Assembly: GCF_002087085.1 (NCBI RefSeq)
Contig: NZ_MWQY01000010.1
Coordinates: 1-64,000, forward strand
Direction: 5' to 3'
Length of the DNA: 64,000 nt
Source: Marispirochaeta aestuarii
GTDB lineage: Bacteria > Spirochaetota > Spirochaetia > JC444 > Marispirochaetaceae
Part shown: piece after piece, positions 45,934-56,036 of the stretch
Layout: every line of letters begins with the position of its first letter
How positions within the stretch are numbered: position 1 is the first letter of the stretch
The notes under the pieces: model-generated
Database searches by the model: none
The model's input: the letters and a program-made list of their open reading frames with translations, nothing else
Told to the model about the DNA's origin: nothing
Translations under genes and position numbers: made by a program

Positions 45934-46851
45934 ATGCCTCTTAACATACCCGACAAACTGCCTGCATACGATGTTCTCACCGGGGAAAACATCTTTGTCA
46001 TGACCCATTCCCGGGCAGTACATCAGGATATCCGCCCCCTGCGTATAGGCCTGCTGAACCTGATGCCCCTGAAAATAGAGACAGAGGTTCATCTGCTCAG
46101 ACTCCTTTCCAATACGCCCCTGCAGGTGGAGATAGATCTGGTTCATACCGCCACCTACCGTTCGACCCATACCCCGGAATCTCATCTGGAAACCTTCTAC
46201 ACAACCTTCGAAGAGATAAAGGATAAAAAATACGACGGTTTCATTATAACCGGAGCTCCGGTGGAGCAGATGGAATTTGAGGACGTGGCCTACTGGAAAG
46301 AACTTACAGAGATAATGGACTGGGCAAAAAAGCACGTTACCAGCACCCTCTATATCTGCTGGGCAGCCCAGGCAGGACTCTACTATAACTATTCGGTACC
46401 CAAGTATCCTCTGGACAAAAAGATGTTCGGGATTTTTTCCCACACCGTTACAGCTCCCCAGGTCCCGCTGGTCAGAGGTTTTGATGACACCTTTCTTGCT
46501 CCCCATTCCCGGCATACGGAAATCAGAAAGGAGGATATACAGGCAAACCCTGAGCTGGTGCTTGTGTCCGAGTCAGAGGAGGCGGGGGTCTTCATTGTAA
46601 GCACCAGGTCCGGGAGGGATATCTACGTTACCGGACATGTGGAGTACGATCCCCTTACCCTGAAGAAGGAATACCTGCGGGACAAGAATAAAGGCCTGGA
46701 GATCGAACCGCCGGAAAACTATTTTCCCTCCGGGGATGAAACACAGCACCCGGTGGTCCGCTGGAGGAGCCATGCCAACCTGCTATTCTCAAACTGGCTC
46801 AATTACTACGTATACCAGATCACTCCCTTCCATATCGAGGAGATCAGCTGA
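45934..46851 (+). CDS. metA: Homoserine O-acyltransferase MetA, acetyl-CoA type by residue 111
   Basis: The enzyme acylates homoserine in methionine synthesis. The 305-residue protein has the catalytic C142 ([10 protein letters not shown]), H235 and E237 (TGHVEYD) at exactly the family positions. The acyl-donor position in [11 protein letters not shown] is E111; glutamate here goes with acetyl-CoA, glycine with succinyl-CoA, so homoserine O-acetyltransferase activity is expected despite the MetA fold. AAAAGGAGA precedes the ATG. I found no SAM riboswitch in the leader. Its end overlaps the convergent kinase gene by eight bases. Confidence 0.93.
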
Positions 46852-49800
46852 ACTGGATCTGCTGCAGAAAACGTTCGGCTTCGGCGATAAACTCAGGCAG
46901 CGCCGCATCAATTTCCGGCAGGTCTTCCCGTTTGGCGGCCTGCTCCAGACGCAAGGCGGCCTGCCTCAGAGCTTCGGCGTAGAGAGCAGCGGAGCCCCCT
47001 TTCACCGAATGTGCTTCCCTGTGCAGGGTTTTCCAGTCTCCGGATTCTCTGGCTTCCCCGACAGTCTTTATCTGATGGCCCAGGGCCTCAATAAAGCCCT
47101 GAATAAGCTCATCCGCAACTTCCTCATCCCGGACCTCCCGCAGCAGAGCCTCCCGGTCCATGATTTTCCCTGCGCTTAACCCGCGATTCTGCCGGAGCTC
47201 CCGGTCCTCTTCTTCATACTCTGCGGGCAGGTCAAAAAAGAAGGCGAGGGTCCTGAAGAGTTTTTCCCGGCGCAGGGGTTTAACCAGAACCCGGTCCATA
47301 CCTGAATCAAAGCATCGCTGAATGTCCCGGCGAAAGGCATCGGCGGTTACCCCTATGATCGGCGTTCTGCCCTGCCTATAAGCTTTTTCCATCTCCCGTA
47401 TTTTCATGGCCGCTTCGTACCCATCCATGGAAGGCATGTGGATATCCATGAGAACAAGATCAACAGCCTCTTCTCGAAAAAGGTCGACCGCCTCTCTGCC
47501 GTTCCGGGCAAGGAGTATTTCCGCCCCGGTATGCTTCAGAAACTGTATCAGGACCTCTGCATTCGGCCGGTAATCCTCGGCGATCAGAATCCGTCGTCCC
47601 TTCAAGTCGATCCTGAAACCCTGGGGTTCTATCCTTTCCTTAACTGCGACCACAGGGTCCTCCGCCGCCTCGAGGCTTAGATCGAACCAGAAACGGCTTC
47701 CTTTACCGGGGGTACTGGTAAACATCAGACGGCCGCCCATCTGCTCCACAAGCTGCCGCGCAATGGTCGTACCAAGACCGGTACCGCCGTATTTTCGCGT
47801 CTCGCCCCCGTCGACCTGGTAAAAACTGTCGAATATATGGGGCTGGGCATTCGGAGGGATACCGATTCCCGTGTCGCTGACTTCAAAGTGCAGGTTGCAC
47901 CTGCCTTCGTTTATGCTGCTGTTGACCGCCAGGACGACCTCCCCCACCTCGGTGAACTTGACGGCATTGCCCAGGAGATTATTCAATACCTGCCGAATCC
48001 TCAGGGAATCGCCGAAAAGAAAGCGAGGGAGCATATCAGTCCTGTAGAGACTGAAGGCAATACCCTTTTTTGCGGCCAGGGCCGCGTGGGTGTGGGCCAG
48101 GGAATCCAGCAGGCCGTTCAGTTCGAAGGGTTTCGGTTGAATAACCAGCTTTCCCGCTTCTATCTTGGATAGATCCAGCACCTGATTTACCAGAGTCAGC
48201 AGTGTCTCTGACTCTTCCCGGATCATCCGGGCGTAGCTTCTTCCCTGGTCGGGATCCACAGTTTCCGATGCAACCTCGCTGAACCCGATAATACAGTTCA
48301 GGGGGGTTCTCATTTCGTGGCTCATGCGGGCGATAAAAGCCGAACGGGCATTCTCCGCATTCTTGAGTTCGGTAACATCGTGTCCGAAGGAGATAATCTC
48401 CCTGACCTTTCCGTTTTCATCCCTCACCGGGAGCAGAATATTATCGATATAACAGACATCCCCGCAGCCGTGGCAGGTGATAATCCCGCTTAAGGCTGCC
48501 ATACGTTCAAGGGGGTCCTCTGAAAGGGGGAGTCCTCTTTCTCTGACAACGGGATCCATCAACTCCATCAGGTCCCGGCCGGCAGCCTTGGTATAGTTCA
48601 GCCCGAAACGGTCTCGAAAGTGACGGTTCATATAGATGATCCGTCCCATGCTGTCGGTTTTGGCAACCAGGGATCCGGCATCCATGGCCCGCCTGTAGGC
48701 CTCGAGAAATTGACCTGTTGTATAGAGTTTTCGCTGCTGCTCCCGCTCCTCGGTCTTGTTCCGCAGAATCAGAAGCACATCCGCTTCCCCGGCGGCCACA
48801 AAGCGAAACTCGAAGTAGAACCCCCGTTCTCCCTCAAAACGGTACTCGAACAGGGTTTCCCGATGCTGTTCCAGGGCGAGATCGGCATAATATCCGATCT
48901 TGTAGGCCAGCTCCCCGGGGAAAATCTCATCAGCCCGGCCGGGGAACTCCTGTCTGGTAAAAATCCGGGCCGCATCGGGATACACCTGGACTGAAGTGAC
49001 AATACCGTCCCTGTCGACCTGCAGAATGGAATCGGGCAGAGCCTTCAGGATTGCAGACTGAATACGTATACTTTCCAGCAGCCGTTCCTCAGCCTCCTCC
49101 TTGCGCACTTTATACGCCGCAATGAGTATGGAGAAGGGAATCAGCACCAGGGAGATACCACCGAACCATGCAATATGCGCATAGAGCTGATAATCGAAAA
49201 GAGCTTTCTGGTCAGAAACCGGCAGCATGGTAACAAGGGTAAAGATATCGGAGTAGATCTTTATTCCTCCGCTGCTCCTGAATCCGGAAAACATGAAACG
49301 CCTGGCGACCAGAAGATCGCCGTCAATCCAGTAGGCCCGGGGTTCGGCATTGATCAGTTTCCGCAGGGCGTAGGGTTTCGGCAGGGAGGTCCCGTTGCCT
49401 TCCAGATCCAGGAGTGTCCCCAGGGAGGTGAAGATATACCGGCTGAAGGAGTCGCTTCCGTTCTGCAAGTAAAAAAGGTTCCGAAGGGAATTGAAATCCA
49501 CAACCAGCTGCAGGAAGTACCGCGAAGCTCCTTCGGAACGGTCAGAAACCGGCATCCAGAAATAGACCAGGGGGTTCTGGAGAGGTTCTTTCCAGAGGGC
49601 CGCCGAGCCGGATCCTTCAACATTGATCAGGAGTTCCTTGTCGGCGAGCATACGAATCCGCGCCAGCAGATCGGTCGTCAGCGGCTGATCTGTCCTGGAA
49701 AAACCGGGAGATACCGCAGATCCGACGAGCTCGCCCTGGTTATCAAAATAGCTGATACTGCGATAACGGGATTTGCCGGTCAGAAGCAGGCTGAGGGCAT

Positions 49801-50098
49801 GCTCGTCAACGGCAGGAGCTTTGCTGTCCGGCGACCCGAAAATAATGTCCGAGGCGGACAGAAAAAGGCAGTCTCCCATTACTTCTGAAAAAAAGGCACC
49901 CAGCATATTCGTGTAGAATTCGCTGCGGCCTTCCGCCTCCGCTTCCATCATGTGGCGGTAGTTCATATAGTTGTTCATGTAGAAGATGGCGACCAGAATC
50001 AGAACTAGGCTTGCGAAACCGAGGAACAGGGAAGTCGCCAGTGCCCCCAGGGACATTCTGTGATGGAATGCTTCATAGGAGGATGAGCTGTTTTTCAT
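46844..50098 (-). CDS. Hybrid sensor histidine kinase with two PAS, receiver and HPt domains
   Basis: This 1084-residue protein has TM1 at about 20-42, a large periplasmic sensor (43-305), TM2 at about 308-329, PAS (about 345-450) and PAS (about 465-580). HisKA has H594 in [12 protein letters not shown], and the HATPase has NAVKFTEVG and SDTGIGIPP. The receiver has [13 protein letters not shown], and the C-terminal HPt has [15 protein letters not shown]. The full phosphorelay short of an output regulator is in one chain. Its ATG overlaps the stop of a binding-protein gene (ATGA), pointing to joint sensing of that protein's ligand. No output regulator is adjacent. Confidence 0.93.
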
Positions 50099-51324
50099 TG
50101 GGAGGTTTTCAGCTTATCGAGCTCCGTCTGGGCCCATTTCAGCGAATCGACTGAAATATTTCTGCCGGATAATACCGTGGAGAAAAAAACACTTTCATAT
50201 ACATGCTTGACGTTCCCCCACTCGCCGTACTCGAGGGGAATCTCCCGGGTTCTTCCGGAATCCAGTACATGCAGGCCGTAACGTATAACCCGGGCCAGGG
50301 GTTCTTCTCCAAGGTAGTCGGAAGCTTCCAGGACCGTGGGAATGAATCCCCCGACCCCCTTGGAAATGCGGGCCTGGACCTCGGGCCGGGTCAGATACTC
50401 GACAAGGGCCAGGGCGGCTTTTGCATTTTTTGTTCCCCCGGGAATTCCCACCGCACTGAATCCCGATACGGAACCCATCCCCGCCGGCCCGGAAGGAGCG
50501 GGGTAAACATCAAAATTGCCCGGGGACTCCTGGAGAATACTTCCCGCATGGGCGCAATGGGCAAAGGCAAACCAGGCACTCCCATCTACAAGGGGATCGA
50601 TTACCGTATCAAAGTTCTCTATCAGCGGATGAAACACCCAGCGCATTCCCTGCAGCAGACGCAGCGCCTCGAGGGCAGCTTCGGAGGTCAGATCAGGGAA
50701 ACCTCCGCCATAGGAGAGAATCGGACCTGCCATAAAATAAACAAGGCTCTTGTTCGGTACCCCGGTTACCGCCAGCAGTCCCCTGCCCTGCTGTCGGGAT
50801 GCTCTCTGGATCCACTCCGCCACCTGGGGCCAGGTAATGTTTTCGCCATCCGCCCCGACAGGTCTGGCGGAAGCCGCCTCTCTGGAAGCAATCAGCAGAT
50901 ATACATCCGCACCCAGGGGAAGAAAGTACTCCCAGGTATCCTTCCTTTCGGTTCCCAGATGCTTGAACAGAAAGGTGCGATCCTCGAATAACTTTGACTG
51001 CTCCCGTAAATCGACAAAATCGATGGCATCTGCAAGGGAAGCGAGTCTGTTGCCGTAGAAAATAATGAGGTCGGCCTCGGATAATTCTCCGCTCTCCGCC
51101 ATCCTGTCCATATCCGTATCCGTATACAGCAGAAGCTCAGTTTCGATTCCGGTCTCGGAATAGAAACGCTTCAGTTCTTCCCGAATGAAGGTCTGTTCCC
51201 TCAGGGGAGTCCAGAGCCTGGAATAGATCTGCAGGGGAGTTTCCGAGCCTGTCCGGTCCCGGGAACATCCTGCCAGGGCAGAAAATATGAGAAGAATGAT
51301 TAAGTACCGGCCGTATCTGGACAA
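50095..51324 (-). CDS. Lipoprotein extracellular solute-binding protein (family 1 type), coupled to a hybrid kinase
   Basis: The best start is TTG 51324, six bases after AGGAG, giving SRYGRYLIILLIFSALAGC with a lipobox. An ATG at 51345 lacks a ribosome site. The product of about 409 residues has the large two-lobed binding fold (LTSEAALEALRLLQGMRWVF, then ..GSAWFAFAHCAHAGSILQES, ..GFSAVGIPGGTKNAKAALALVEYLTRPE), as in sugar-binding lipoproteins. No ABC permease or ATPase is nearby; the only partner is the hybrid kinase gene overlapping its stop. A dedicated sensory role is inferred. Confidence 0.82.
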   Translation of the reverse strand: MSRYGRYLIILLIFSALAGCSRDRTGSETPLQIYSRLWTPLREQTFIREELKRFYSETGIETELLLYTDTDMDRMAESGELSEADLIIFYGNRLASLADAIDFVDLREQSKLFEDRTFLFKHLGTERKDTWEYFLPLGADVYLLIASREAASARPVGADGENITWPQVAEWIQRASRQQGRGLLAVTGVPNKSLVYFMAGPILSYGGGFPDLTSEAALEALRLLQGMRWVFHPLIENFDTVIDPLVDGSAWFAFAHCAHAGSILQESPGNFDVYPAPSGPAGMGSVSGFSAVGIPGGTKNAKAALALVEYLTRPEVQARISKGVGGFIPTVLEASDYLGEEPLARVIRYGLHVLDSGRTREIPLEYGEWGNVKHVYESVFFSTVLSGRNISVDSLKWAQTELDKLKTSQ

Positions 51325-51363
51325 AATCGGCTCCTGAAAGACCATGTTTTTTACGATAATGAT

Positions 51364-51412: not shown

Positions 51413-53032
51413 ATGCGCAAACGATCTGTGGCTGTCGGCTCGGGAAAAGGCGGAGTCGGAAAAACAACTACAGCTGTCAATCTGGCCATTTACTATGCGA
51501 AGCAGGGCTATGCCACGGCTCTGATAGACCTGGATCCCCTCTCCAATGCCGCTACACTGCTGGATGTGGAGGACGGATACAATGACGCGGGCCTTGATCC
51601 GGAGGCCTCCCTGGACGCCTTCATTCTTCCCATATTCGACAACCTGGACCTTCTCTTTCCCGGAAAAAAAACCGGCCCCCGGGATTCCCGTATTATCAGA
51701 GAACTCCTTTTTGAAACCTTCTCCGCAGCCCTGACTTCAGCCTATGACCTTCTGATCTTCGACCTGCCCGCAGGCCTCGATGAAGAGGAAAACCTCGCAT
51801 TTCTGCCCCACATCGACAACCTGATTGTGGTAACAAACCCGGAACCCACCGCCCACGTTGCGGCGGGGGCCTATATCAGGGCAGCCCTGGCCAAGGCGCC
51901 GGATATAAACCTGTATGTGTGGCACAACCGCTTTTCTCCACCCAGGGGGGGAGGCATAGTATCCCGGGACGTCATCGGAACCTACAACCGGAACATGCCC
52001 GCGGAAGAGCGGCTGGATGAAAAACTGAAAGAGTCGATTCAGGGGATAGCCTTTGTTCCCGAAGACCCGGCTCTTGACCTGCTGCAGGGGACCCCTTCGG
52101 CGATCATGAATATTCACAGGTCACTGCTCAGTGTTGTGGGGCAGCTTATCGAGGAACGGACGGAGCTGCTGGTTCGCCCCCTGCCCTTCAGCAAAGGCAT
52201 GCGCCGCCTGCTCAGCTTTTACCTTTCAGGCAGCCGTCAGGAAAAGGAAGAGGATTTTCTTGCAGGGTTCGGAGAGTATGTCTCCGGGCTTCTCAACTCC
52301 GCTTTCAACAGGGAAAGCGGCGGAACCGAAACCTTCACGGAACAGGAGCGCAGCGTCCTGGCCGAGACCTTTCGGATGGTGCGGAAGGACCCCTCCCTGG
52401 TCCACATGCGGCGGGTGCGGGTTCTGCTGGAAGCCAAGATCGAGGCCCTGGAGGATGAGACAAAACTCTTCTCCAAGGGAGTCCATATCGATCATGATAA
52501 AAACATCGACCGGGAAACCGGACTTCTTCTGCGCAGCATCCAGCAATCCGCCGCTGTAAAAGAGCTTCGTCTCAACGCGGGGATACTGCTCTTCTATTTC
52601 GCCCTCTACAAGCTTCTGCAGTCGCCCACAATCGTCCGCCTCCTCAACGATTTTATCCCCTTCAGGGAAGGGTCCAGGGGAGAACCGATACGGGACCGCA
52701 GGAGTCAGATTACCAACCTGATCCACAGCAGCGAAGAGTACAACCGCCGCTATTTCGGCCTTATCAAGACGATCTTCCCGGTTGTGGGAAAGCAGATAGA
52801 AGCGGTCACCCGGGCCTTCGGGCTTCACAGCCTCCTGTTGCGGGACCCGGAGAGCAGAAAGGTAAGAAGCGATCTCTACGCGAAGCTGCTGAGCAACTTT
52901 ATTCACGACACCCTCTACTCGGGTCTTTCCGTGGTGGTGGGATTCGAGTACCGCAGCGCGGCCATCTCGTTTCAGGAAGGGGCCGATTTTCTGGGGGAGG
53001 CCCTTCTTCCCTCGAAACAGAAGAGCGCCTAG
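51413..53032 (+). CDS. ParA/MinD-like ATPase with a long C-terminal domain of unknown function
   Basis: GGGAGGG before ATG 51413 gives a 539-residue product. Residues 1-240 are a MinD/ParA ATPase: deviant Walker A with both lysines (GSGKGGVGKTTTAVNLA, about 9-25), LIDLDPLSNAATLLD as switch I/A' region, and LLIFDLPAGLDEEENLAFLP. The remaining 300 residues are largely helical and charged with no motif that I know. MinD and ParA end at about 260 residues, so this is a fusion or a distinct spirochaete-type family. It sits alone, convergent with thiZ (four-base overlap). A role in positioning a cell-envelope or motility structure is only a guess. Confidence 0.85.
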   Translation: MRKRSVAVGSGKGGVGKTTTAVNLAIYYAKQGYATALIDLDPLSNAATLLDVEDGYNDAGLDPEASLDAFILPIFDNLDLLFPGKKTGPRDSRIIRELLFETFSAALTSAYDLLIFDLPAGLDEEENLAFLPHIDNLIVVTNPEPTAHVAAGAYIRAALAKAPDINLYVWHNRFSPPRGGGIVSRDVIGTYNRNMPAEERLDEKLKESIQGIAFVPEDPALDLLQGTPSAIMNIHRSLLSVVGQLIEERTELLVRPLPFSKGMRRLLSFYLSGSRQEKEEDFLAGFGEYVSGLLNSAFNRESGGTETFTEQERSVLAETFRMVRKDPSLVHMRRVRVLLEAKIEALEDETKLFSKGVHIDHDKNIDRETGLLLRSIQQSAAVKELRLNAGILLFYFALYKLLQSPTIVRLLNDFIPFREGSRGEPIRDRRSQITNLIHSSEEYNRRYFGLIKTIFPVVGKQIEAVTRAFGLHSLLLRDPESRKVRSDLYAKLLSNFIHDTLYSGLSVVVGFEYRSAAISFQEGADFLGEALLPSKQKSA

Positions 53033-53820
53033 GCACCTCCGGAACGCAGAATACTGTAAATCCGGCGCTTTACCCGCAGAAAATCATCCTCCATAACCAT
53101 CTCCCGGCTCCGCGGACGGGGAAGAGGGATTTCCTCCTCCTCGAGAATGCGGGAGGGTTTTTCGCTCATTACCATGACCCGGTCGGCGATCAGGATGGCC
53201 TCGTCTATATCGTGGGTGACCATAAGGACCGTGGTATTCAGGGCGGAAATAAGTCCGGAAAGCCAGTCCTGCAGGCGTTCCCTGGTAATGGCATCCAGGG
53301 CGCCGAAGGGCTCATCCAGAAGCATGATGTCCCGGCGGTACAGATAGGTCCGCATAAGAGCCGCCCGCTGACGCATCCCGCCTGAAAGCTGAGAAGGGTA
53401 ATACTCCTCGAAACCTTCCAGTCCGAAGGGGCCGAAGAGGGGCGCGGCGATCCTTTCCGCCTCCGCCTTCGACATACCCTTCAGCCGCAAGGGTATTGTC
53501 ACATTCGCCATGACACGCTTCCATGGAAGGAGCAGATCCTTCTGGTGCATGTAGCCTACCCGTCCGGTTTCGCCGTTCACCAGCTCCCCACCGATGACGA
53601 TCTCTCCGGAATCGGGATGATCCAGTCCGGCGACCAGATGCATCAGGGTGCTCTTCCCGCAGCCGGAGGGCCCGAGAAGGGCCAGGACCTCTCCCCGTTT
53701 CAGGGAGAGGGAAATCCCGTCGATTACATCAAGACCGGCAAAGCCTTTCACCACCTCCGAGAGACGGATTATGGATTCTGTGCCCAGAGAGGACTGGTGC
53801 TTAACGGGGGAGGAATTCAT
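53029..53820 (-). CDS. thiZ: ABC transporter ATPase for a thiamine precursor (ThiZ-like)
   Basis: The 263-residue ATPase has Walker A LLGPSGCGKST, a Q-loop MHQKDLLLPW, the signature LSGGMRQRAALMRTY, Walker B IMLLDEPFGALD and the H-loop VTHDIDEA. It looks like the nitrate/taurine/ThiZ group, and the ThiY-type partner plus the TPP riboswitch upstream decide for thiamine precursors. It starts at ATG 53820 inside the last 20 bases of thiY, with GGAGG about 12 bases ahead. It is the last gene of the operon. Confidence 0.88.
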   Translation of the reverse strand: MNSSPVKHQSSLGTESIIRLSEVVKGFAGLDVIDGISLSLKRGEVLALLGPSGCGKSTLMHLVAGLDHPDSGEIVIGGELVNGETGRVGYMHQKDLLLPWKRVMANVTIPLRLKGMSKAEAERIAAPLFGPFGLEGFEEYYPSQLSGGMRQRAALMRTYLYRRDIMLLDEPFGALDAITRERLQDWLSGLISALNTTVLMVTHDIDEAILIADRVMVMSEKPSRILEEEEIPLPRPRSREMVMEDDFLRVKRRIYSILRSGGA

Positions 53821-54778
53821 TGGTAAAGGCCGCCTCCGGAACAAATTCGCCTTCCAGAAGACCATTCTCCTTAAGCCATTCGGCATAACGCTCCCAGACT
53901 TCCAGCTTCATCTCTCCCCAGCAGGGCGCCCCGGCCGTGTACTCCCCGGCCAGGTAACGCTGGCTCGCCACAACCAGTTCGCGATCCAGTTCCGGTGCTG
54001 CTTCGAGGAGGATATCCGCAGCCTCTTCCGGGTTTTCGACGGCATAGCGGTACCCCCGGGCTGCTCCTGATATAAAGGCGCGAACCAGCTCGGGATTTTC
54101 CTGGAGCAGGCCGTCCCGGGCAATGAGGACGGGGGTGTAGTAATCCAGTACCGCCTCGGTGGCCAGGGGAATATAGTTGATATCGATCCCTTTAAGCTCC
54201 GCGGCAATGCCGTCCCAGCCACGGAAAATCCAGACAAAATCAATGTCCCCCGCAGTGGCGGCGAAAAAGTCCATCGATCCTATGGGAACGATCTTTACCT
54301 TTGAAAAATCCCCGCCGTCTCCTTCCACCAGGGCCCTGACCATGGCTTCCTCGATGGGTGATCCCCAGCCGCCGTAGGCCTTGCCCTCGAAATCCCTGGG
54401 ACGGCGGATATCCTCGGCGCTGCGGGAGGCGAATCCGGAGGTGTTGTGCTGGATAACCGCAGCCACAGCCTTAAGTGCGTTACCCGCGGCCCGGGCGTAG
54501 GTAACCTCCTCCTGGTAACTCACGGCGAACTCGGCCTTCCCCGACAGAACGAGTCCGGCGGCCCCGGTCTCGGGGGGGAACTCGATGGAGACATCCAGGC
54601 CCTCCTCCTCAAAGAAGCCCAGATCCCGGGCGACATACAGGCCGGTATGGTTTGTATTGATGGTCCAGTCCAGGACCACCGTTACCGCTTCGGGTTTTTC
54701 CGACGATTCTCCGCCTCCTCCGGCAAAGGCCGCCAGGGTCGATACAGCAACAAATAAAACAACAAGTGTTCGTTTCAT
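53801..54778 (-). CDS. thiY: Pyrimidine-precursor binding protein (ThiY/NMT1 family)
   Basis: The 325-residue protein has a signal peptide ending TLAAFAGGGG and opens VTVVLDWTINTNHTGLYVAR, the ThiY/THI5-like signature (LDW-x-x-N-x-N-H-T-G). The late motif GAPCWGEMK is also common in this group. ThiY captures formylaminopyrimidine or hydroxymethylpyrimidine, breakdown products of thiamine. Its ATG overlaps the permease stop by four bases. It supplies substrate to the ThiX/ThiZ pair. Confidence 0.9.
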   Translation of the reverse strand: MKRTLVVLFVAVSTLAAFAGGGGESSEKPEAVTVVLDWTINTNHTGLYVARDLGFFEEEGLDVSIEFPPETGAAGLVLSGKAEFAVSYQEEVTYARAAGNALKAVAAVIQHNTSGFASRSAEDIRRPRDFEGKAYGGWGSPIEEAMVRALVEGDGGDFSKVKIVPIGSMDFFAATAGDIDFVWIFRGWDGIAAELKGIDINYIPLATEAVLDYYTPVLIARDGLLQENPELVRAFISGAARGYRYAVENPEEAADILLEAAPELDRELVVASQRYLAGEYTAGAPCWGEMKLEVWERYAEWLKENGLLEGEFVPEAAFTNEFLPR

Positions 54779-55566
54779 GATTTACTCCTCAGGTTTGCAT
54801 ACTTCCAGGAAAGAAAAAAACGCTCTGCCAGCGACACGGCGGCAAACACCATGAGGCTGACTATGACGACGACGAGAATGGCGGCGAAGACCCGGGGGGT
54901 GTTGAAGGTTTTATATGAACGCATCATATAGACCCCCATGCCCGTCTGGGCGCCAAGCCATTCTCCGATAACAGCTCCCATCACGCTGTAGGTAGCTGCA
55001 ATCCGCAGCCCGGAAAAGAGGTTCGGCAGAGCTCCCGGGAGCCTCACCTGCAGAAATATCTGCAGGGGTTTTGCCCTCATTCCCCGGAACAGATCGATAA
55101 GGTCGGGATCGGTATTCTGCAGTCCGTCTATAAGACTTACGGCCACCGGAAAAAAACAGACAAGAACAACCACCACAACCTTGGCGGTGAGGCCAAAGCC
55201 GAACCAGATCAGAAAAAGAGGATAGATAAAAATGATCGGTACCGTCTGGGAAACCACAATATAGGGATACAGAGCCCTTCGCAGGACCGGGAAGAGGTCC
55301 ATGATAAGGGAAAAGAAGGCCGCCACCAGCAGAGAAAGGATAAATCCGCTCATGGCTGTAAAAAGGGTTACCCCGATGTGGGGCAGCATAAGATCAAACT
55401 GCCGGACCAGGGCTGCAGTAATCGCCGAGGGCGCAGGCAGAATGTATTCCGCCAGCCCCAGCAGTCTGCAGAAGGCTTCCCACAGCAGAATAAAAAGCAG
55501 GCCCGCTGCCATTGAGGGCAGCCGGTCCCTGATTCTATTGGTCACGATACTTGCCGATCTTCTCAT
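54775..55566 (-). CDS. thiX: ABC transporter permease for a thiamine precursor (ThiX-like)
   Basis: The 263-residue protein has six membrane segments and the EAA-type loop GMRAKPLQIFLQVRLPGALPNLFSGLRIAATYSVMGAVIGEW (in pieces, about 150-195) of the SsuC/ThiX family. The preceding thiamine-binding gene overlaps its start by about 30 bases; the alternative GTG 55545 would reduce this. It forms the membrane channel with ThiZ and ThiY. Confidence 0.88.
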   Translation of the reverse strand: MRRSASIVTNRIRDRLPSMAAGLLFILLWEAFCRLLGLAEYILPAPSAITAALVRQFDLMLPHIGVTLFTAMSGFILSLLVAAFFSLIMDLFPVLRRALYPYIVVSQTVPIIFIYPLFLIWFGFGLTAKVVVVVLVCFFPVAVSLIDGLQNTDPDLIDLFRGMRAKPLQIFLQVRLPGALPNLFSGLRIAATYSVMGAVIGEWLGAQTGMGVYMMRSYKTFNTPRVFAAILVVVIVSLMVFAAVSLAERFFLSWKYANLRSKS

Positions 55567-55828
55567 TGAAACTCAGCCCCCCGGGTTTCATGTCCGTCTT
55601 GATGACAGCGCCGACCCGGCTGGCCCCTTCGGCGAGGCAGATACGATGAGCCTCTTTGACCAGATCGAAAAGCTGGTCCATCTCCCCCTCGATGGTCGTC
55701 TCCATGGGACCTATAATATGGGGAAGGCCCGAGGCACGGATCATCTCTATTACTTTATCCACCGTTGGATAAAGCCGTTCGTCGGGGACTCGTGGCAGTA
55801 TTTGAAGACTCAGATGCATGGCGGGCAT
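55535..55828 (-). CDS. Thiamine-binding protein, MTH1187/YkoF-like
   Basis: From ATG 55828, with GGGAGGTG four bases before it, the product has 97 residues: MPAMHLSLQILPRVPDERLY, then VDKVIEMIRASGLPHIIGPM, ETTIEGEMDQLFDLVKEAHR and ..GASRVGAVIKTDMKPGG. This is the ferredoxin-like MTH1187 fold whose members bind thiamine or HMP. As the first gene behind the TPP riboswitch it fits a cytoplasmic carrier or sensor of the imported precursor. An ATG at 55855 lacks a ribosome site and is not used. Confidence 0.86.
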   Translation of the reverse strand: MPAMHLSLQILPRVPDERLYPTVDKVIEMIRASGLPHIIGPMETTIEGEMDQLFDLVKEAHRICLAEGASRVGAVIKTDMKPGGLSFNEKIGKYRDQ

Positions 55829-55865
55829 AGACACCTCCCGGATGTTCTTATTCAAAGGGAGGCGA

Positions 55866-55907: not shown

Positions 55908-55937
55908 GTGACAAACAGCGGTTAACAGTGACGAACC

Positions 55938-56027
55938 GTCAATCCCTTCGCCGGTATTATCCGGATCAGGTCAGAAGGTCGGAATCGAACCATTCCCTCT
56001 CAGCCGTAACTCACAGCTCCCTTTGAC
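55938..56027 (-). promoter_or_regulatory. Thiamine pyrophosphate (TPP) riboswitch (THI element)
   Basis: The minus strand carries the conserved core GCTGAGAGG (near 56004-55996), then ACCTGATCCGGATAATACC (near 55973-55955) and GCGAAGGGA. The outer stem P1 is closed by GTCAA (56027-56023) with TTGAC (55942-55938). The order and spacing are standard for TPP riboswitches. It lies between a promoter and a terminator and controls the thi transport operon. Confidence 0.95.
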
Positions 56028-56036
56028 TATAACTGA

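Follow-up and report, generated by a model that had tools for sequence, protein, structure and literature searches.

The gene analysed here raises two questions: why an ATPase of the ParA/MinD kind should carry a helical domain of about 275 residues, and what the protein does with it. The gene lies in a window of 64,000 nucleotides (the whole stretch of DNA that was analysed) from Marispirochaeta aestuarii, the host genome. An earlier reading of the letters alone, called the sequence-only reading below, had taken it for a solitary gene encoding a new positioning or assembly factor, a role that is the default for this ATPase family and is unproven here. The gene is a conserved variant of a known ATPase class with one unusual structural feature; its anatomy is well supported, and the function proposed for it is an inferred one.

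The open frame runs from an ATG at 51413 to a stop codon at 53030–53032. An alternative in-frame ATG lies upstream at 51344, without Shine-Dalgarno support comparable to that of the ATG at 51413. Relative to two congeners, dN/dS is about 0.05–0.15 in both halves of the gene, a qualitative figure given that the synonymous values are saturated at more than 1. Because the ratio is low in both halves, the frame is not a chance ORF, and the gene is under purifying selection. The homologue in a congener, Candidatus Marispirochaeta associata JC231, is 67% identical. The features are collected in Table 1.

Table 1. Features of the ATPase gene in the window, with the cyclase-domain protein found beside some of its relatives (positions are those of the window unless a locus is named)
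Feature	Position	Strand	Evidence
Shine-Dalgarno sequence GGGAGG, 5 bases 5' of the start codon	51402..51407	+	sequence reading
Whole gene: MinD/FlhG-class ATPase with predicted inserted helical domain, 539 aa + stop	51413..53032	+	ORF, alignment, model
First part of the ATPase fold, residues 1–229	51413..52099	+	Pfam CbiA/ParA/AAA_31; NCBIfam MinD; invariants 30/30
Predicted inserted helical domain, about residues 230–503, basic	52100..52921	+	AlphaFold2 models, charge count, VIA-align, splice test
Most basic, highly conserved part of the insert, residues 415–469: hairpin + two helices	52655..52819	+	alignment, conservation, charge
Predicted return to the ATPase fold, residues 504–539, opening GLSVVVGFEYRSAA...; last MinD-fold helix 515–531	52922..53029	+	VIA-align, splice test, pLDDT contrast
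Class III cyclase-domain protein	L094:7615-9300	+	relatives in L054, L061, L065, L093, L095, L121-L140

The class of the protein can be read from its first part. Pfam and NCBIfam assign about residues 1 to ~180 to ParA/MinD ATPases, and the motifs within residues 1–229 are a SGKGGVGKT Walker A sequence (with K12 and K17), DLDPLS, DLPAG, NPEPTAH and VPEDP. Both Walker lysines had been picked out by the sequence-only reading; the signature lysine K12 and the P-loop lysine K17 are indeed invariant in all 30 aligned sequences, as are S10–K17, D39, D41–S44, D117, A120–G121 and others. Among NCBIfam models those for MinD score highest, at 52.8 bits, far below the curated MinD cut-off of 212.9 bits, and CpaE_hom_Actino is also among the top matches. 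The Pfam ArsA_ATPase match is confined to residues 10–53. FlhG is both the best match among PDB sequences and the top Foldseek match. In VIA-align, the predicted model matched MinD and FlhG with Z scores of 24.6–24.1 and an rmsd of 2.4–2.8 over 226–235 residues (E. coli MinD-ATP dimer 3q9l, 24.6; FlhG 4rz3, 24.1), followed by FleN at 22.0–22.9 (5j1j, 22.9) and ParA/Soj at about 21–22. The sequence and fold marks of a deviant Walker A ATPase – KGGVGKT/S with both lysines, the aspartates that follow, and a MinD/ParA fold, here in a predicted model – are all present. Pfam, NCBIfam, predicted fold and invariant catalytic residues thus agree with the ParA/MinD-like ATPase first proposed, and by its sequence and modelled fold the protein can be assigned to the MinD/FlhG class of deviant Walker A ATPases.

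The sequence-only reading had some 300 extra residues following the ATPase, and in this it has to be corrected: in the predicted model ca. 275 residues (about 230–503, boundaries taken from the model, ± about 10 residues) lie inside the fold, and the last ATPase helix comes after them, at about 515–531. AlphaFold2 predicted the full protein with a mean pLDDT of 85.7 and a pTM of 0.81, and residues 241–539 alone with 82.3 and 0.77. The rival topology is a domain appended after a complete ATPase fold, in which helix 230–254 would be the last ATPase helix and residues 504–539 would be part of the new domain. Against this, residues 501–530 lose their confidence when the ATPase is left out of the prediction, with block-mean pLDDT of 84–92 with the ATPase present and 46–60 without it. 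Among the VIA-align rows listed, 50 of 50 span model residues 1–4 to 527–539 and only 210–240 residues align; since so few align across so long a span, it is the far C-terminal helix that completes the fold, with ca. 275 residues inside.

Removal of the insert in silico raised the score against the minD_arch profile in seven of eight members, left one unchanged and lowered none (differences of 5.3, 1.8, 8.8, 8.3, 3.5, 3.8, 0.0 and 0.2 bits), which also argues against an appended domain. Splicing lengthened the match in two of the eight, to profile position 224 or 232 of 251; in a control on the window protein (P0001), a wrong splice gave no such lengthening. Of 30 spliced sequences, 7 followed a diverse profile to its end, vs 51 of 990 wrong splices, which is weak support. 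Two results favour the appended domain: a profile of spirochaete FlhG showed no splice effect, the spliced sequence being better than the contiguous one in only 6 of 30, and a blind window scan for the last helix gave near-equal scores at the two candidate places (z of 3.54 at 506, residues 506–529, vs 3.49 at 228, residues 228–251). Taken together, the models and alignments make it very probable that the helical domain interrupts the ATPase fold ahead of its last helix, and improbable that it is appended at the C-terminus. Only 8 residues lie beyond the last helix in the window protein, and the tails of its relatives are variable; with so short a tail, a MinD-type membrane helix is not seen.

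The insert is all-helical in the AlphaFold2 model save for one small hairpin, a result that also holds when residues 241–539 are predicted by themselves and bears out the helical domain read from the sequence. It is basic, with a net charge of +1 to +28 (median +13) and a median pI of 9.7 in the 30 members; the ATPase part is mostly acidic (median net charge −8, pI 5.2). Per 100 residues, the median charge of the insert is +4.3, vs +4.7 for the 95th percentile of neighbour proteins. Five residues of the most basic part are invariant (P416, R427, D428, Q432 and Q461), and so are K400, Y489 and H498 elsewhere in the insert. Insert and ATPase are on one protein in all 30 aligned members.

The extra residues had been said to match nothing known, and this still stands after the searches. 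Pfam has no match from residue 241 onward. The best match to the extra region among PDB sequences (E 6.5e-4) is a designed repeat protein and was treated as chance; the best Foldseek match in the PDB has an E value of 0.48, the best VIA-align row has a Z of 4.8 and ties with unrelated rows, and viral structures gave no usable match. No profile search matched the region to a known ParA/MinD partner domain. As modelled, the insert would be a fold with no detectable relative in Pfam, among PDB sequences or in fold searches, an absence that is no proof of a new fold.

Of 394 genomes of the class, 97 have the insert according to a search with profile A2, built from 30 sequences of the extra region, as a rule with one match per genome. 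A search with a single sequence in place of the profile found it in 96. Two bearers, G097 and G298, were added from the profile search, and one genome, G355, was dropped – its match in the single-sequence search (E 8.7e-4, a 113-aa ORF) was not repeated by the profile. The 97 bearers fall in 26 family codes; apart from the dropped G355, the gene was not found in f19 and f24. The open frames of the matches are mostly 500–740 aa, a few short ones may be cut by contig ends, and two matching pieces in G151 were read as one broken gene. Within a sample of the phylum, 17 of 392 genomes matched: 16 of the same class and one at chance level, a 19.5-bit match outside the class with stops inside it, which was set aside. 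A single-sequence scan of genome contigs, the sole search that reached genomes outside the phylum, found only a congener, and no relative was found in plasmids, phages or viral contigs. In these searches the gene is limited to one class of spirochaetes.

Six further places in the host genome match the ATPase at E ≤ 0.001: FlhG with an FlhF-like neighbour, an Mrp-like protein, two MinD-like proteins (L004 and L005), Soj with a ParB-like neighbour, and a MinD-like Fe-S pair, the names FlhG, FlhF, ParB and Fe-S being given by eye from the sequences. FlhG, which carries the sequence DQAEQLR, is the best-scoring of these paralogues. The flhF-like gene and flhG lie on contig C14, away from the present ORF, and the soj-parB pair is elsewhere as well, its parB-like ORF adjoining L006. 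With separate flhF-flhG and soj-parB loci in the host, the protein is neither FlhG nor ParA. In a tree of the ATPase part, with an arbitrary root and several paralogues on long branches, all 30 members form one clade (support 96/98) apart from the host paralogues. The MinD-like ATPases at L004:1402–2427 (+) and L005:1492–2631 (+), open frames of 342 and 380 aa, are also distinct from FlhG.

The bearers of the gene are nearly all flagellates. FliF (PF01514) was found in 92 of the 97 bearers vs 188 of 297 non-bearers (Fisher p 7e-11, uncorrected for phylogeny), and the five bearers without it are genomes that are 91, 87, 77, 70 and 58% complete. This link does not show a flagellar function, because both traits follow phylogeny and the gene is missing from most genomes with FliF; the 188 without it include whole families.

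These data bear on the possibility that the protein is a second FlhG-type regulator of the periplasmic flagella, controlling their number, pole or length, with an insert that would bind a flagellar part specific to spirochaetes. The rank of FlhG in the PDB-sequence and Foldseek searches and among the host paralogues speaks for such a regulator, as does the frequency of FliF among bearers. But the host has a canonical flhF-flhG locus, a separate FlhG was found in 19 of 20 bearers searched (the exception is G041), MinD has a structural score as high as that of FlhG, and the gene is missing from many flagellated genomes. The neighbourhood is no more favourable: among the 25 commonest of the 118 Pfam families in 118 flanking proteins (one gene to either side), there was no flagellar, chemotaxis-specific or ParB family. 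A second FlhG is unlikely.

In the window the gene is solitary, as first described, with neither parB nor flhF near it; its neighbours are a divergent gene pair and a convergent ABC operon. The divergent pair (46844–51345, −) encodes an SBP_bac_8 solute-binding lipoprotein and a hybrid histidine kinase, and is kept in three genomes of the genus. The start codons of the lipoprotein and the ATPase are 67 bp apart if the lipoprotein starts at 51345. The operon (53029–55855, −) encodes an ATPase, a THI5-like binding protein, a permease and a small protein that is thiamine-binding-like by eye; with a TPP riboswitch upstream (55925–56033, −, 72.1 bits), it is an ordinary system for uptake of a thiamine precursor.

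Sixty-two loci from the 97 bearers were read, and no operon is conserved across them; nor was a cargo or partner found from neighbourhoods and co-occurrence. There is a suggestive excess of signalling genes upstream, confounded by phylogeny. A gene with a receiver, kinase, GGDEF, EAL, PilZ or cyclase domain is immediately upstream in 17 of 60 loci and 6 of 23 families. Counting both sides, 20 of 119 adjoining genes are of this kind vs 27 of 485 genes at least three places away (Fisher p 1.7e-4), in a test on non-independent loci with a domain set fixed only after a first look. The signalling neighbours differ in kind between families.

One such neighbour is a class III cyclase-domain protein, mostly of 480–580 aa, with a conserved C-terminal part that matches no NCBIfam model; five copies that were compared are 50–74% identical. 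The gene adjoins the ATPase gene upstream in six f22 loci and in L065, and is at +2 in L054. As an obligate partner the cyclase was rejected – it has no orthologue in the host genome, and the occurrence of the two genes is not nested. Residues 259–291 of the insert (window 52187–52285) align weakly with the start of the C-terminal part of the cyclase-domain protein. The hhalign score is 23.3 with a probability of 2.45%, a score equalled or exceeded in 1 of 200 column shuffles, and homology between the two, as judged from their sequences, is unproven.

A role in signalling would make the insert a sensor of a second messenger or regulator whose state is relayed by the ATPase switch, by analogy with FleN, which relays signalling for FleQ and c-di-GMP. 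It would fit neighbours that include REC-GGDEF proteins, PilZ proteins, receivers and kinases as well as the cyclase, which is kept beside the ATPase in f22, one f25 genome and one f31 genome (at +2), and FleQ-FleN structures are among the matches to the predicted model, where FleN aligns with Z scores of 22.0–22.9. Yet in counts uncorrected for phylogeny, 91 of 394 genomes of the class have the cyclase-domain protein at E ≤ 1e-40, and 60 have both genes, against 31 with only the cyclase and 37 with only the ATPase. With these counts, a host that lacks the cyclase and so weak a match between insert and cyclase, such an effector is unlikely.

ParA/MinD ATPases are a general cargo-positioning system of bacteria, in which specificity usually resides in separate partner proteins. 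The preferred reading, offered tentatively and as somewhat short of probable, is that the present protein switches as an ATP-dependent dimer and uses its insert to bind a surface or a partner, so as to place a cargo linked to motility or signalling. Judging by its class, it would form an ATP-bound dimer that is released by hydrolysis, as in MinD, FlhG and ParA. Through the insert the protein would touch either a partner or a surface, the latter being nucleoid DNA or acidic membrane, and this contact would replace the one that MinD makes by its C-terminal membrane helix; changes of ATP state would load and unload the protein there. In MinD, membrane binding is the work of the element that follows the last helix; in ParA, DNA is bound close to the C-terminal helices. 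A basic insert directly before the last helix would therefore be well placed for contact with a surface or partner. The cargo would be part of the apparatus by which free-living spirochaetes move or signal, apart from the jobs of FlhG and Soj, and this is the least supported step.

Get3/ArsA, of the same superclass, likewise has a helical domain inserted into an ATPase fold that forms dimers, and by analogy ATP might close the dimer so that a client, either a protein or a membrane protein, is held in a groove made by the two helical inserts. This is very improbable, as the ArsA_ATPase match covers only the P-loop region, the insert is basic and not methionine-rich, and Foldseek (PDB) and VIA-align reported no likeness to the client-binding subdomain of Get3, though that is no exclusion. 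A bolder form of the positioning idea would have the insert, as a new fold, let a MinD-type switch itself bind nucleoid or membrane and answer second messengers, for dedicated positioning of motility or sensory cargo; the protein would then be a positioning system of free-living spirochaetes, one that many flagellated relatives have lost or never had. That is a long shot.

The analysis marks out a conserved gene of free-living spirochaetes for which no published function was found in the literature, where openly available papers were mainly covered, passages of PMC12236494 among them. A conserved ATPase with a large built-in domain, from bacteria whose cell plan is unusual, would offer a compact model of the way this class gains a new surface or cargo. 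According to PMC10241942, a bacterium with many such ATPases has five that are each dedicated to one cargo, often revealed by the neighbouring genes. In contrast to the ATPases described there, the neighbours of the present gene reveal no cargo.

The protein resembles several known systems in part. Get3/ArsA is a dimeric ATPase with a helical insert, and the present protein would share both traits, its dimer being that of its class; but the sequence match is weak and confined to the P-loop, and fold searches saw no relation between the inserts. CpaE/TadZ and Ssd join a receiver-like domain to a MinD ATPase and are likewise in two parts, and CpaE_hom_Actino is among the top NCBIfam matches; in the present protein, the extra domain is helical and near the C-terminus, and the chain starts at the Walker A strand with no N-terminal receiver. 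ParA/Soj shares the deviant Walker A, with structural scores below those of MinD, and no parB adjoins the present gene. MinD matches best in fold and among NCBIfam models, but the score is about a quarter of the cut-off, and MinD has no such insert and does have a C-terminal amphipathic membrane helix. FlhG has an N-terminal activator segment with the motif DQAxxLR, which is absent here since only nine residues precede SGKGG. Unlike FlhG and FleN, the present protein has an insert of ca. 275 residues, does not adjoin flhF and coexists with a separate FlhG, yet it is of the same ATPase class as these two, with FlhG as its best PDB sequence match and predicted structural similarity at Z scores of 24.1 (4rz3) and 22.9 (5j1j).
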